Source: an uncultured Bacteroidota bacterium (lineage in GTDB: Bacteria; Bacteroidota; Bacteroidia; Bacteroidales; WCHB1-69). From it: DNA of 37,961 nucleotides. Shown here one piece after another: positions 2,861 to 14,301 of this stretch. The position numbers were made by a program, and so were the translations under genes. Position 1 is the first letter of the stretch. Each line of letters begins with the position of its first letter. Location: the NCBI GenBank assembly GCA_902797625.1, contig CADBTU010000110.1:1-37961 (forward strand), in the 5' to 3' direction. The notes below the pieces were generated by a model. The model saw only the letters and a program-made list of their open reading frames with translations, was not told where the DNA came from and did no database searches.

Positions 2861-3208
2861 TTAATATACAGGGGGGAGCCCCGCAGCATAGAGTATGCCA
2901 GATGTTTTGAACATTGAATATTTAGTTCTAATGATTACCATATCATTATCTTCGGCCAATTCGAGCATATCATCAGTAACCTCTTTACCGCGAACAATCA
3001 AAATGTAGTTGATGTCTGACATTTCGCAAGTTCTAATAGATTGTAAATTGCAAAGGCCAGTAAGAAGCATAAGGCCATCATTGTCTTTTAATGTAAGAAC
3101 ATCACTCATCAAGTCGGAGGCAAATACACAGGCAACCTCTTCTTTTACTCGCTCATCTCCGCAAAGTATCTCACCTTGCACTAAATTGATAATCTCTTCA
3201 ATTGTCAT
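2861..3208 (-). CDS. DRTGG-domain protein, HydS-linked copy
   Basis: A 115-residue protein made of a single DRTGG-like domain, a ligand-binding module otherwise known beside CBS domains and in phosphotransacetylase-type proteins. I chose the ATG at 3208 (MTIEEIINLV). A longer frame reaches 3313, but that would run across the promoter and into cstA, and its extra N-terminus is unlike the family. A TATATTTG -7 box about 30 bp upstream supports this start. Conserved pieces are SDLMSDVL near residue 33 and DDMLELAEDND near 79. The gene opens the operon DRTGG - GHKL ATPase - HydS-like - exporter. It is a clear relative of the DRTGG protein at 28490-28825 and probably senses a nucleotide or small metabolite; the ligand is unknown. 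Confidence 0.75.
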   Translation of the reverse strand: MTIEEIINLVQGEILCGDERVKEEVACVFASDLMSDVLTLKDNDGLMLLTGLCNLQSIRTCEMSDINYILIVRGKEVTDDMLELAEDNDMVIIRTKYSMFKTSGILYAAGLPPVY

Positions 3209-3237
3209 AGTTCTATTTTCGAAATTAAAACAATCCG

Positions 3238-3245
3238 CAAATATA
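3238..3245 (-). promoter_or_regulatory. Promoter -7 box of the DRTGG/HydS operon
   Basis: On the minus strand the sequence reads TATATTTGCG, matching the Bacteroidota -7 consensus TAnnTTTG. It lies about 30 bp upstream of the chosen ATG at 3208. It is divergent from the cstA promoter 34 bp away. Confidence 0.6.
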
Positions 3246-3278
3246 CATTTTCTTAATACATTAAGATTCAAAAAAATG

Positions 3279-3286
3279 TACTTTTG
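3279..3286 (+). promoter_or_regulatory. Promoter -7 box of cstA
   Basis: TGTACTTTTGC contains a perfect TAnnTTTG element 26 bp upstream of the cstA ATG at 3312. No convincing -33 TTTG is seen at the usual spacing. The two divergent promoters share a 103-bp intergenic region, so one regulator could affect both. Confidence 0.6.
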
Positions 3287-3311
3287 CACGTTATTTAAGA
3301 TAAAAATTATC

Positions 3312-4742
3312 ATGATTACTTTTTGGATTTCGTTGATACTATTAGTGTTAGGATATCTTATTTATGGCAAATTTGTAGAGAATATTTTCTGTATAAATGA
3401 AAAGAGTGTAACACCTGCTGTCAGCATGTCGGATGGTGTAGATTATGTTCCTATGAAGTCTTGGAAGCTTTTCTTAATACAATTTCTCAATATAGCTGGT
3501 GTAGGTCCTATATGCGGTGCAATAATGGGAGCTCAATTTGGTTCTGCATCATATCTTTGGATAGTTTTTGGTTGTATCTTCGGAGGAGCTGTACACGATT
3601 TCTTTTCTGGAATGATCTCTCTGAGAGAAAAAGGTGCAAGTCTCCCAGAAATTCACGGAAAATACCTTGGAGATGGCATTAAGCAGTTTATGAGAGGATT
3701 TATGGTTATCCTTATGATTCTTGTAGGTGTAGTTTTTGTAAATACTCCTGCACAACTTTTGCAGTCTCAATTTACGCCAAATTGTAGTGTTTATGTATGG
3801 GTTGTAATTATATTAGGTTATTATCTGATTGCAACATTACTTCCGATAGACAAAGTTATAGGAAAGATTTATCCTATATTCGGTTTTTTACTTATAGGTA
3901 TGGCTTTGGCGATAGTGGCAGCCTTTGTAATATATCGCCCAGAAATACCAGAAATATCTGATGGATTACAAAATTTAAATCCTAATACCGCCGATAATCC
4001 AATATTTCCAATGATGTTTATTTCAATAGCTTGTGGGGCTGTTTCGGGGTTTCACGCAACGCAATCTACACTTGTAGCACGTTGTATGGTAAATGAAAAT
4101 CAAGGGCGAAAAATTTTTTATGGTGCAATGATTATTGAAGGTGTTGTTGCCTTAATATGGGCTGCTGCTGCATCTTATTTCTACCATGATAATCCAGAAT
4201 TGCTCACCAAAAGCGGTCCAGCAATGGTAGGTGTTATAGCCGAAAAATGGTTTCCTCGCACTATTGCTGTGGTAACAGTGTTAGGTGTGATAAGTGCGGC
4301 TATCACATCTGGAGATACAGCTCTGCGTTCTGGAAGATTGATTATTGCCGATTTTTTGAATTTAGAGCAAAAAAGTATAAATAAACGCTTAAGGATAGCT
4401 ATTCCATTATTTCTTGTAACTGCTGTTTTCTTGATTTTTAGCCTCGCAGCTCCCAAAGGCTTTGCAGTTATTTGGCAATATTTTTCATGGGCAAATCAGT
4501 TTTTGGCCGCATTTACTCTTTGGGCTATTACAGTGTATTTGGCACGAACTAATACTAAAAAGTTTTTCTTGGTATCTTTAATACCTGCTCTTTTTATGAC
4601 TATGGTTACTTCGAGTTTTCTATTTGTCTCTAAAACTTGTCTTGGTTTATTTTGTCCATGTACATTGGGATATGTTTTATCCGCTTTAATAACTATTCTA
4701 ACCTTGGTGTTTTTTTTGAAAAAAGAAGTTTATAGATCTTAA
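3312..4742 (+). CDS. cstA: CstA-family carbon starvation / peptide or pyruvate transporter
   Basis: A 476-residue polytopic membrane protein of the CstA family. In Escherichia coli, family members import peptides or pyruvate during carbon limitation. Family features seen are SWKLFLIQFLNIAGVGPICG near residue 50, the segment GAVHDFFSGMISLREKG near 95, and the region ISAAITSGDTALRSGR near 340. I start at ATG 3312 (MITFWISL). The frame is open upstream to 3009, but that part overlaps the divergent gene and has no membrane character. A perfect -7 box lies just upstream. The length matches the short Bacteroidota and clostridial form, not the 700-residue enterobacterial form. A cluster of three cysteines (CLGLFCPC) lies in the last loop. 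Transcription probably ends at the hairpin at 4940-4983. Confidence 0.9.
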   Translation: MITFWISLILLVLGYLIYGKFVENIFCINEKSVTPAVSMSDGVDYVPMKSWKLFLIQFLNIAGVGPICGAIMGAQFGSASYLWIVFGCIFGGAVHDFFSGMISLREKGASLPEIHGKYLGDGIKQFMRGFMVILMILVGVVFVNTPAQLLQSQFTPNCSVYVWVVIILGYYLIATLLPIDKVIGKIYPIFGFLLIGMALAIVAAFVIYRPEIPEISDGLQNLNPNTADNPIFPMMFISIACGAVSGFHATQSTLVARCMVNENQGRKIFYGAMIIEGVVALIWAAAASYFYHDNPELLTKSGPAMVGVIAEKWFPRTIAVVTVLGVISAAITSGDTALRSGRLIIADFLNLEQKSINKRLRIAIPLFLVTAVFLIFSLAAPKGFAVIWQYFSWANQFLAAFTLWAITVYLARTNTKKFFLVSLIPALFMTMVTSSFLFVSKTCLGLFCPCTLGYVLSALITILTLVFFLKKEVYRS

Positions 4743-7359: not shown

Positions 7360-7390
7360 TTGACAAAGCATATTTTTGATTGTATTTTTG
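7360..7390 (+). promoter_or_regulatory. Strong promoter for the secreted protein genes at 7585 and 8159
   Basis: A TTG at 7360-7362 is followed, after 20 bases, by TATTTTTG at 7383-7390. This is a good match to Bacteroidota -33 and -7 elements at normal spacing. A second TATTTTTG at 7371-7378 overlaps the spacer and is placed too close to the TTG. The predicted start near 7397 gives a leader of about 190 bases. Confidence 0.6.
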
Positions 7391-7480
7391 TAATGTTCAA
7401 AAGGGTTAGCCTCCCCACGAATAAAAATTAGTTGAAAACAAAAATATTATAAAGGCTTATGAAGAAATAAAACAAATTAA

Positions 7481-7532
7481 AAGGTTGCAATTCCTTAAAA
7501 ATTGCCGCGACAAGAAAACACTTGTCAACCTT
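7481..7532 (+). ncRNA. Predicted three-way-junction RNA in the 5' leader
   Basis: Three perfect 6-bp helices pack into 52 bases. The outer stem is AAGGTT (7481-7486) with AACCTT (7527-7532). Hairpin 1 is GCAATT (7487-7492) with AATTGC (7500-7505) and a 7-base loop. Hairpin 2 is GACAAG (7509-7514) with CTTGTC (7521-7526) and a 6-base loop. The junction has only three unpaired bases (7506-7508). It lies 52 bases upstream of the ATG at 7585. I do not recognise it as a known riboswitch. It could be a cis-regulator, an mRNA stabiliser or a small RNA. Confidence 0.5.
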
Positions 7533-7584
7533 GCGAAAATAGGTAATCACAGAAACAAAATTATTAACCAAAAAAACAAAAACA

Positions 7585-8121
7585 ATGAAAAAAATTTTCT
7601 TATTTATCGGACTAAGCATTTTAAGTTTTAACATCTTTGCCGAGGGAGTTCCTTCAGTGAGTGTAAATAAATCACAAGGTGGTTGGACAGCAATTTTAAA
7701 TTTATACAATTATGTAACATTCACACCTGCAGAGTTAACAGATAATGGTATTGCTCAGTTGAACTGTCAAGGAAGTGGATATAGTTGGTGTAGAGTTCCT
7801 AATTGCAGCACGATGCCAGCATCTAATGGAGTATCAAGAATTGATGTAACAGAGCAAGCAAAAGTGAATATGTTAGCAAATGCTATTAATCAAATTTTAG
7901 AGCAGATAGAGAATGATGATAATGCAAATGCTACAGCAATTAGCACACATAGAGTAGATAACACACGTAAAACTTATACAAAGAAATTAGCAATAAAAAG
8001 TAGTGAAAACCGTGGTAGGGTTAATTGCGACTCCTATGTAGTTAAAGCTGTAAGAAATAATAATCCAAGAATAGGAGGTGAAACTATTGATATTTTTGTT
8101 GACAAAGTGAATCTTTTCTAA
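7585..8121 (+). CDS. Secreted protein of unknown function
   Basis: A 178-residue protein with a clear Sec signal peptide (MKKIFLFIGLSILSFNIFA, cut before EG). I do not recognise the mature part. It has a polar, Asn-rich sequence, a cysteine group (C-x7-C-x4-C in LNCQGSGYSWCRVPNC, near residues 59-72), a short helix (AKVNMLANAINQILEQIEND) and one later Cys (VNCDSY). There is no T9SS tail, no lipobox and no membrane segment, so it is probably periplasmic or released. The strong promoter with phased A-tracts and the structured leader suggest high or regulated expression. The next gene begins 37 bp downstream on the same strand and also encodes an exported unknown, so the two may form a unit. Confidence 0.8.
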   Translation: MKKIFLFIGLSILSFNIFAEGVPSVSVNKSQGGWTAILNLYNYVTFTPAELTDNGIAQLNCQGSGYSWCRVPNCSTMPASNGVSRIDVTEQAKVNMLANAINQILEQIENDDNANATAISTHRVDNTRKTYTKKLAIKSSENRGRVNCDSYVVKAVRNNNPRIGGETIDIFVDKVNLF

Positions 8122-8158: not shown

Positions 8159-9790
8159 ATGAAATCGCGTATTATCACATTTACATGGCTATTGCTAATA
8201 AGCTCTATTAGAGTATCTTCTCAAGAGTGGATAGGAAAAATGTTTACTTTAGATACCACAATACTATTGAGTGCTATTGATAAACCATTAAATATGAATC
8301 ACACTCAATGCAGAATATATAATAACAATTTTTACTTTCTTGAGAAACAAGGTTTTCAATACGAAAAGGGAAATAATAGGTTTGCAGTAATTTACAGCAT
8401 TTCGTTAAGTGATTACGCACAAGAAGAAATTAAAATTCCATATCCAAGTAGGATAAATGAAAACAAAAAGAGAGTTAACTCGGATTTGTGGATTTATGAT
8501 TTCGATTTTTACGAAGATTTGTTGTTAGTAACAACTCAAGAAAATATTGTGATTTACAAAAAAACAGAAGATTCAAGATACGAGATAATTTCAATTGACG
8601 AAAATCATAAAAATCTTTTTACGGCATACTATGATGGTTTACGATTAAATTATTTCGAAGAAGATCACGACAGAGGCTTCAAATGGTTTCAAAAAGACAT
8701 CAACGGTGATTCGGTAATTCTTGTTAGAGAGTTATTATATGATGCTCCCCACGTAGTTCAAATACAACCGAATCGCTACTTTTTCCACAACAAAGAAAAT
8801 GTATTCTTCCTAAGTAATAGATTTCCAAAGATGGATATATACACCAAAGACGGAATGAAACTTCAAACAGTTGAATTCAATTTACCTAATTGGAAAGCGT
8901 TTGAAGATGAATATATCAAACATTCTTTATCAAAGCCATACGGAGTAGAGAGAATAATGGCGGTGAAAGACGATCTATTCTCATATTCATATCCCAAAGT
9001 TGTTTTTCCATTCTTTGATGAATATATGTTATTCTATTTGCAATTTGACACAACTATTGGAAAATCAGTGCTGCAATATGCAATACTAAACCATGATAAG
9101 CAAATTCATCGATACTCTTTTAACTATGAAAACGGCAAGTATGTTGCAGCACAATTTCCATTTAATCTTTTTCGAAGCAGTTATGATAAAGGTAACGTTT
9201 CTGAAGGTAATACTCTCGTACAACTCACATTTTATTCAGATATTAGTTGGAATAATAAAACTGACAAAGAATATCTCACTCAATTGAACAGCTATTTTGA
9301 TAAAAATGAAGCTAATGTAGCTTATAAAATCATGCGATACAATGGAGGAAATGCTAAAAGCGATGAGTATATTAATTCAGGGATTATTCACAATAAGACA
9401 AATGAAAAAGATGTTTACATTATTCACGGTGAATTAGAATGTTCTGGATGTACAAAATCAATATATATAATGTTAAATTCTTCGGAAGAATTATTTAGGA
9501 TTCATCAGATATATAGTAGGCAATTAACAGGTCTTCAACGACAAGAGGTGCAAAGAGATATTAAACAAACCTTAGGTAAGCATTTCTCTATAGAAAATAT
9601 ACAAGATTTAAAAAAAGAAGGTATATCAATTCCAAAATTATCCGAATTAGATTATCCTTGTATAATTTTGAGATGTAATAACAAAAAAACTAGAGTTTAC
9701 AAAGTATCAGACATTTTTACTAATGACGTTTCAATAACCAATTTTAAAAAAGAATTTATTGAAGAATGGGAGGATTTTCTTAGTGAGTAA
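8159..9790 (+). CDS. Exported protein of unknown function with a C-terminal CxxC motif
   Basis: A 543-residue protein starting with a signal peptide (MKSRIITFTWLLLISSIRVSS, cut before QEW). The first 400 residues are rich in short beta-strand-like blocks with aromatic residues and repeated polar turns, as in a beta-propeller, but no repeat is clear enough to count blades. At 418-431 a strand-like segment leads into ECSGC (C428, C431), followed by an amphipathic stretch. Later a second pair occurs (C501, C506 in YPCIILRCN). This could be a degenerate thioredoxin-like fold, but I cannot assign it. The gene follows the unknown secreted protein by 37 bp with no terminator between them, and precedes an independent promoter for the DUF58 gene. 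Confidence 0.75.
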   Translation: MKSRIITFTWLLLISSIRVSSQEWIGKMFTLDTTILLSAIDKPLNMNHTQCRIYNNNFYFLEKQGFQYEKGNNRFAVIYSISLSDYAQEEIKIPYPSRINENKKRVNSDLWIYDFDFYEDLLLVTTQENIVIYKKTEDSRYEIISIDENHKNLFTAYYDGLRLNYFEEDHDRGFKWFQKDINGDSVILVRELLYDAPHVVQIQPNRYFFHNKENVFFLSNRFPKMDIYTKDGMKLQTVEFNLPNWKAFEDEYIKHSLSKPYGVERIMAVKDDLFSYSYPKVVFPFFDEYMLFYLQFDTTIGKSVLQYAILNHDKQIHRYSFNYENGKYVAAQFPFNLFRSSYDKGNVSEGNTLVQLTFYSDISWNNKTDKEYLTQLNSYFDKNEANVAYKIMRYNGGNAKSDEYINSGIIHNKTNEKDVYIIHGELECSGCTKSIYIMLNSSEELFRIHQIYSRQLTGLQRQEVQRDIKQTLGKHFSIENIQDLKKEGISIPKLSELDYPCIILRCNNKKTRVYKVSDIFTNDVSITNFKKEFIEEWEDFLSE

Positions 9791-13951: not shown

Positions 13952-13957
13952 AAAAAA

Positions 13958-14284
13958 GGAAAACCCGTAAGCTGGGTTCTGTTTTATGTTGTCATTTATC
14001 TCGAACTTGTGTCGCCACAAGTCTCTATCAACCTACCCTCCAGGTCGGACGAGCAGCCCTCATACCCTGGTTTATTTGGTCTTTCAACCCATAAGGTTTA
14101 CCCTCGTTAACATCACTGCTAACGGCGTGAGCTCTTACCTCGCGATTTCACCCTTACCTTTTATTAGGCGGTATATTTTCTGTGGCACTATCTGTCGCAT
14201 CTCTGCGCCTTCCTGTTAGGAAGTATGGTGCTCTGTGTTGCCCAGACTTTCCTCAACTTTTCAGTTGCGACAACTCGGTTTTCC
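13958..14284 (-). ncRNA. rnpB: RNase P RNA, bacterial class A
   Basis: On the minus strand the region has the universal RNase P RNA landmarks in order: GAGGAAAGTC near the 5' end, the GCGACAGATAGTGCCACAGAA block, AAGGTAAGGGTGAAA, GAGGTAAGAGCTCACCG-like sequence (here GAGGTAAGAGCTCACGC), GGTAGGTTGATAGA, and the 3' ACAGAACCCAGCTTACGGGTT. The ends were set by the P1 helix: GGAAAACC at the 5' end (14284-14277) pairs perfectly with GGTTTTCC at the 3' end (13965-13958). The length is about 327 bases. A run of eight T follows the 3' end and can terminate transcription. It starts 17 bp downstream of dnaN on the same strand, and no separate -7 box is seen. Confidence 0.95.
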
Positions 14285-14301
14285 TTTTTATATATTTGTT
14301 T

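Follow-up and report, generated by a model that had tools for sequence, protein, structure and literature searches.

A conserved, uncatalogued leader RNA with a covarying pseudoknot upstream of an orphan exported-protein gene in one family of Bacteroidales

We analyzed a stretch of 37,961 nucleotides (hereafter, the window) from an uncultured Bacteroidota bacterium of the order Bacteroidales (GenBank assembly GCA_902797625.1, contig CADBTU010000110.1, forward strand) and focused on the leader of a gene for an exported protein, P0001. The promoter and the first two genes at this locus, in window coordinates, are as follows.

7360-7390, forward strand: promoter, with a -33 element TTGACA at 7360-7365, a 17-nt spacer, and a -7 box TATTTTTG at 7383-7390
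7585-8121, forward strand: P0001, a 178-aa exported protein of an orphan family, with homologs in 36 of the 40 genomes of its genus and in further genera
8159-9790, forward strand: second gene, an exported beta-propeller protein, next after P0001 in 27 of 27 named loci

P0001 had no relative in Pfam, NCBIfam, or the PDB, and its family shares a conserved L-x-C-x-G-x-G-x-x-x-C-x-x-P signature. The second gene was likewise without a match in Pfam; Foldseek matched it to propellers (best E = 8e-8), and it carries an extra C-terminal domain and a conserved E-C-S-G-C motif. The order P0001, propeller gene, DUF58-type gene, and radC (gene names assigned by inspection) is kept across the 27 named loci, one of which lies on a contig that ends before radC. 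Elsewhere in the window, a bacterial class A RNase P RNA lies on the reverse strand at 13952-14286 (273.9 bits), and an ORF at 3009-4742 resembles, on its sequence alone, a carbon starvation transporter of the CstA type.

A strong promoter and a leader of ~190 bases had been described for P0001 in an initial annotation of this DNA, and both are borne out: the TTGACA and TATTTTTG boxes stand at 17-nt spacing, and the leader measures 194 nt from the end of the -7 box (7390) to the ATG (7585), with the transcription start inferred from the promoter position. The -7 box fits the Bacteroidetes TAnnTTTG consensus (PMC7366714), and nearly all ortholog leaders have the same promoter arrangement upstream. 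These leaders are about 180-240 nt long and carry the motif RGGGYYGGCnnCCC, or a close variant, just behind the promoter, as surveyed in every ortholog with upstream DNA except L037, which lies at a contig end. The combined promoter-plus-motif pattern matched essentially once per genome of the genus, and a reversed control almost never matched. No recognizable intrinsic terminator was found in the leader. A leader peptide was considered and rejected, given that relatives have CTG, GTG, or TTG in place of the window's near-start ATG and that indels shift the frame; the conserved short ORF of a leader-peptide attenuator is thus absent from these leaders.

Within this leader, the initial annotation had singled out a compact three-way junction at 7481-7532, and its three perfect 6-bp helices are all present exactly as described.

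7481-7486 with 7527-7532, forward strand: closing helix, AAGGTT/AACCTT, perfectly paired
7487-7492 with 7500-7505, forward strand: first arm, GCAATT/AATTGC, perfectly paired
7509-7514 with 7521-7526, forward strand: second arm, GACAAG/CTTGTC, perfectly paired
7506-7508, forward strand: CGC, the three unpaired junction bases

Such a structure had been called unlikely by chance, and a chance of about 1% is what we estimate, because a scan for three perfect helices of at least 6 bp with at most three junction bases found a single place in the window and a match in 4 of 400 dinucleotide-shuffled whole windows, though this figure has to be read with the caution that the pattern was defined after it had been seen. 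The junction is also the lowest-energy fold of the isolated 52-mer (-12.9 kcal/mol, z = -2.94; 4 of 200 shuffled 52-mers were equally stable), and it reaches -14.0 kcal/mol against -12.9 kcal/mol for the hairpins P3, P4, and P5 (below) when the remainder is left unpaired. These observations favor the junction alone as the functional unit, a reading that we nonetheless regard as very improbable given the behavior of the closing helix and the position of the conserved parts, which extend outside 7481-7532. In the fold of the full leader, the first and second arms form with probabilities of about 0.95 and about 1.0, and the closing helix with a probability of about 0.10, since 7541-7544 is the preferred partner of 7528-7531 (about 0.65); the 3' strand of the closing helix overlaps the 5' strand of P5 and competes with that 3' hairpin. 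In the nearest relative, L034, the AAGG is kept and its CCTT partner is absent, which breaks the closing helix, and the helix did not appear in any other leader that was inspected. Hence, the two arms survive as conserved helices (P3 and P4), with the compensatory changes proposed as a check being found for the P4 equivalents in relatives, and the closing helix, on which the compact unit depended, does not. Since the closing helix is absent in L034 and improbable in the full leader, the three-way junction is a species-specific alternative and not the conserved fold.

Comparison across leaders indicates that the predicted helices of the junction make up the 3' half of a larger, ~160-nt, previously uncatalogued conserved leader RNA, about three times longer than the 52-nt junction and adding to it a 5' hairpin and a pseudoknot.

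7391-7551, forward strand: whole leader RNA element, as delimited by the hold-out covariance model R2 (E = 1.4e-6)
7403-7415, forward strand: hairpin P2, GGG 7403-7405 with CCC 7413-7415 and a 7-nt loop UUAGCCU, in essentially all leaders
7408-7412, forward strand: pseudoknot strand 1, AGCCU in the P2 loop, pairing with 7453-7457, with loop-linker covariation
7453-7457, forward strand: pseudoknot strand 2, AGGCU, with AGC:GCU in place of the usual GGC:GCC
7487-7505, forward strand: helix P3 (the first arm), GCAATT/AATTGC with a 7-nt loop
7509-7526, forward strand: helix P4 (the second arm), GACAAG/CTTGTC, whose equivalents covary
7528-7544, forward strand: 3' hairpin P5, ACCT/AGGT, with GCGAAA at 7533-7538 in its loop

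The 5' edge of the element lies a few bases from the inferred transcription start, and the partner site of the pseudoknot is found about 40-80 nt downstream of the P2 loop. In the loop of P5, CGAAA is near-invariant across the aligned leaders, and the GAGA of genus g34 and the GACA of genus g41 are compatible with a GNRA-like tetraloop; further, the unpaired bases GACG ... CTGCGAAAGTG are conserved across genera. The covarying helices stop well before the ATG, the element leaves the start codon unsequestered, and 39-82 nt of A-rich, weakly structured RNA (56% A) separate the end of the element from the start codon.

Covariation in an alignment of 53 leaders, out of 57 homologous leaders in all from one Bacteroidales family and mostly from rumen genomes, supports this predicted fold of P2, pseudoknot, P3, P4, and P5. 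For P2 and the pseudoknot, 82.8% of cells pair, compared with 31-56% when the partners are slid, and 41 double-sided changes were counted against 16 in shuffles (0 of 500 reached this), with such pair counts overstating the number of independent events as the sequences are related. For example, the P2 stem occurs as GGA/UCC and AGG/UCU variants in relatives, one pseudoknot position shows all four Watson-Crick pairs (A-U, G-C, C-G, and U-A), and GGC:GCC has become AGC:GCU in the window (L033), L172, L152, L162, and L199, which belong to separate lineages. Independently of any alignment, loop-linker complementarity scored 681, whereas exchanging loops among leaders gave 639 +/- 11 and at most 669 in 300 exchanges. 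In 36 of 42 leaders, a P3 helix abuts the conserved (A)CG on its 5' side, compared with 25% in the shuffled null, and its strands vary in concert (TTAATC/GATTAA, CAAATA/TGTTTG, CAATC/GATTG, and CAATG/CATTG, next to GCAATT/AATTGC in the window). In clade A, P3, P4, and P5 together are 95.3% paired with 24 double-sided changes versus 8 in shuffles (0 of 500), and P4 covaries in genera outside clade A as well. In the A2 alignment, the pseudoknot partner is in the wrong place for L033 and L034; for the window, the hold-out model puts it in the right one. The fold is not uniform across the family: the pseudoknot has just 3 bp in L054, L058-L060, L153, and L155, and leaders L159, L165, L166, and L167 of genus g34 keep the 5' hairpin and loop motif with the 3' CGAAA part lost or degraded.

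Vertical inheritance of the locus with its fixed gene order, and the closeness of the most conserved 5' motif to the promoter, might be taken to mean that the conservation acts at the DNA level or reflects descent (i.e., promoter plus initially transcribed region), with the fold being incidental. We find this scarcely credible in view of changes that compensate each other across a distance of about 40-80 nt, of one position at which four types of Watson-Crick pair occur, and of the change of GGC:GCC to AGC:GCU in several separate leaders.

Other pairings were also tried. A long-range helix joining the UGUC at the 5' end to the conserved GACG looked attractive in a number of genera (CGGUGU/GCGCCG in L195 and L196, for example) and was rejected at a score of 661 against 660.5 +/- 18.6 in controls. 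Pairing of the 5' strand of P2 with an AACC site in the spacer near the start codon scored 406.5 against 351 +/- 18 in swapped controls, but sister leaders (e.g., L039, L044, and L046) disrupt it with no compensating change, leaving an unproven, possible second state. In the window, GGTTAG at 7403-7408 can pair with TTAACC at 7565-7570 before the start codon; pairings of this type are frequent in clade A and are not consistently conserved.

The element is narrowly distributed. The hold-out model R2, from which the window and its sister had been excluded, found the window element at 7391-7551, the next match in the window having an E value of 0.34, and also recovered the held-out g41 and g26 leaders L195, L199, L196, and L197 (E values of 2e-10 to 7e-6). 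Among the 104 genomes of the family, 56 have the element, at one copy per genome with few exceptions, and a scan of 295 genomes of the order gave three weak matches alone outside the family, all judged on reading to be chance and not spread beyond it. Convincing matches always lie upstream of P0001-family genes; another match within the family, in genome G076 (27.8 bits), with no ORF found downstream, was taken as chance. Model R1, an earlier version with the window among its sequences, pointed to genus g41, in which the protein profile gave no hit; the RNA there again precedes an exported protein, of 172 aa, whose C-x-G-x-G-x-x-x-C-x-P signature is similar. Three diverged P0001 homologs that had escaped the profile were reached through the RNA model. 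The named records with homologs are Bacteroidales MAGs, mostly from ruminants. Separately, two genomes of the window's genus contain a second, g38-like leader and gene (L157 in G019:C114 and L163 in G006:C61), which may represent MAG contamination or transfer.

In line with the initial annotation, which could name no riboswitch of this shape, Rfam gave no match at gathering threshold for the window leader and 9 homolog loci and no meaningful match at E values up to 3-5 for 21 further loci, and we found no literature on a described motif of this kind. Together with the compensatory changes and the fixed 5' UTR position before homologous genes, this makes a real, uncatalogued family of structured leader RNAs, absent from Rfam, a well-supported conclusion. 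Rfam does hold lineage-specific Bacteroidetes candidates (Bacteroidales-1 RF01693, Bacteroides-1 RF01694, Bacteroid-trp RF01692, and Flavo-1 RF01705; PMC2864571), which resemble the window element in being lineage-restricted structured RNAs recognized by covariation and differ from it in that the element matches no Rfam family even at permissive thresholds. The 6S-Flavo RNA (RF01685) is likewise a single-copy structured Bacteroidetes RNA, whereas the window element is fixed upstream of one coding sequence and has another architecture, and a 6S identity was rejected as no RF01685 match was found in the window or the genome. A hammerhead-like reading of GACGA...GAAA in other genera was also rejected, as it does not fit the CUGANGA core and Rfam gave no match for it.

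With regard to function, a conserved leader fold before one gene suggests that the message is controlled through its leader, and the tight one-to-one link with a single gene favors a role in cis. Our best explanation, which we hold at slightly better than even, is that this ~160-nt element of one Bacteroidales family regulates its own message in cis through a cellular factor that it binds. In the mechanism we propose, the P2 hairpin would form at the inferred mRNA start and its loop would pair with the downstream site, hairpins P3, P4, and the CGAAA-capped P5 would follow, and the conserved unpaired bases would bind a small molecule or an RNA-binding protein, the bound factor then altering the stability or translation of the P0001 mRNA in cis. 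Attenuation is less likely than an effect on message stability or ribosome loading, because the leader shows no recognizable terminator and the element does not enclose the start codon. Against this explanation stand the lack of a clearly recognizable expression platform, the loss or degradation of the CGAAA part in four g34 leaders, and the 3-bp pseudoknots of some leaders. The earlier suggestion of a new cis-regulatory RNA, a stabilizer, or a small RNA thus carries over to a conserved leader RNA with compensatory changes, and not to the junction for which it was made.

A hairpin-loop pseudoknot is a feature of the fluoride/crcB and other riboswitches. Like these, the window element lies in the 5' UTR, has a short 5' hairpin with its loop paired to a strand further downstream, and contains unpaired bases that are conserved; it differs in having no Rfam match, in preceding one gene only, and in showing no clearly recognizable expression platform. 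That the pseudoknotted, CGAAA-capped leader is a new riboswitch class, i.e., a candidate aptamer controlling an exported-protein operon, is a doubtful proposition in our judgment.

A leader may also act without sensing anything, as a 5'-UTR mRNA stabilizer of the E. coli ompA type. A fold at the extreme 5' end would then passively shield a highly transcribed message from 5'-dependent decay, and the window element resembles such stabilizers in its structure, which starts a few bases from the inferred start of a strongly transcribed exported-protein mRNA, the promoter being strong and conserved, the product probably abundant, and the ribosome entry region open. We consider passive stabilization possible and on balance unlikely: a simple stem has no need for so many near-invariant unpaired bases (the pseudoknot loop, GACG, and CTGCGAAAGTG), and the element occurs at one gene per genome, though many strongly expressed genes could use one. 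Improbable, in our estimate, is a 5'-UTR-derived small RNA, in which the leader would be cleaved off or terminated before the coding sequence to act in trans as part of a dual-function transcript. Small RNAs derived from UTRs are known in Bacteroides (PMC7366714), and the element is single-copy and compact with a clean end before the A-rich stretch, but the leader has no terminator, and the same gene family always follows it, even when diverged past profile detection.

Returning to the favored reading, that of a factor-binding regulatory leader, the element adds a leader RNA family from uncultured, mostly rumen bacteria in which gene regulation is little known, and it marks a single orphan exported-protein gene as worth special control. 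The RNA model reached diverged P0001 relatives that the protein profile had missed. Messages of Bacteroidia are without Shine-Dalgarno control, and sensing of a metabolite or of an RNA-binding protein by the leader, if real, would offer a new handle on regulation in this class; if the riboswitch reading were true, the operon under its control would be one confined to a single family of mostly rumen Bacteroidales.
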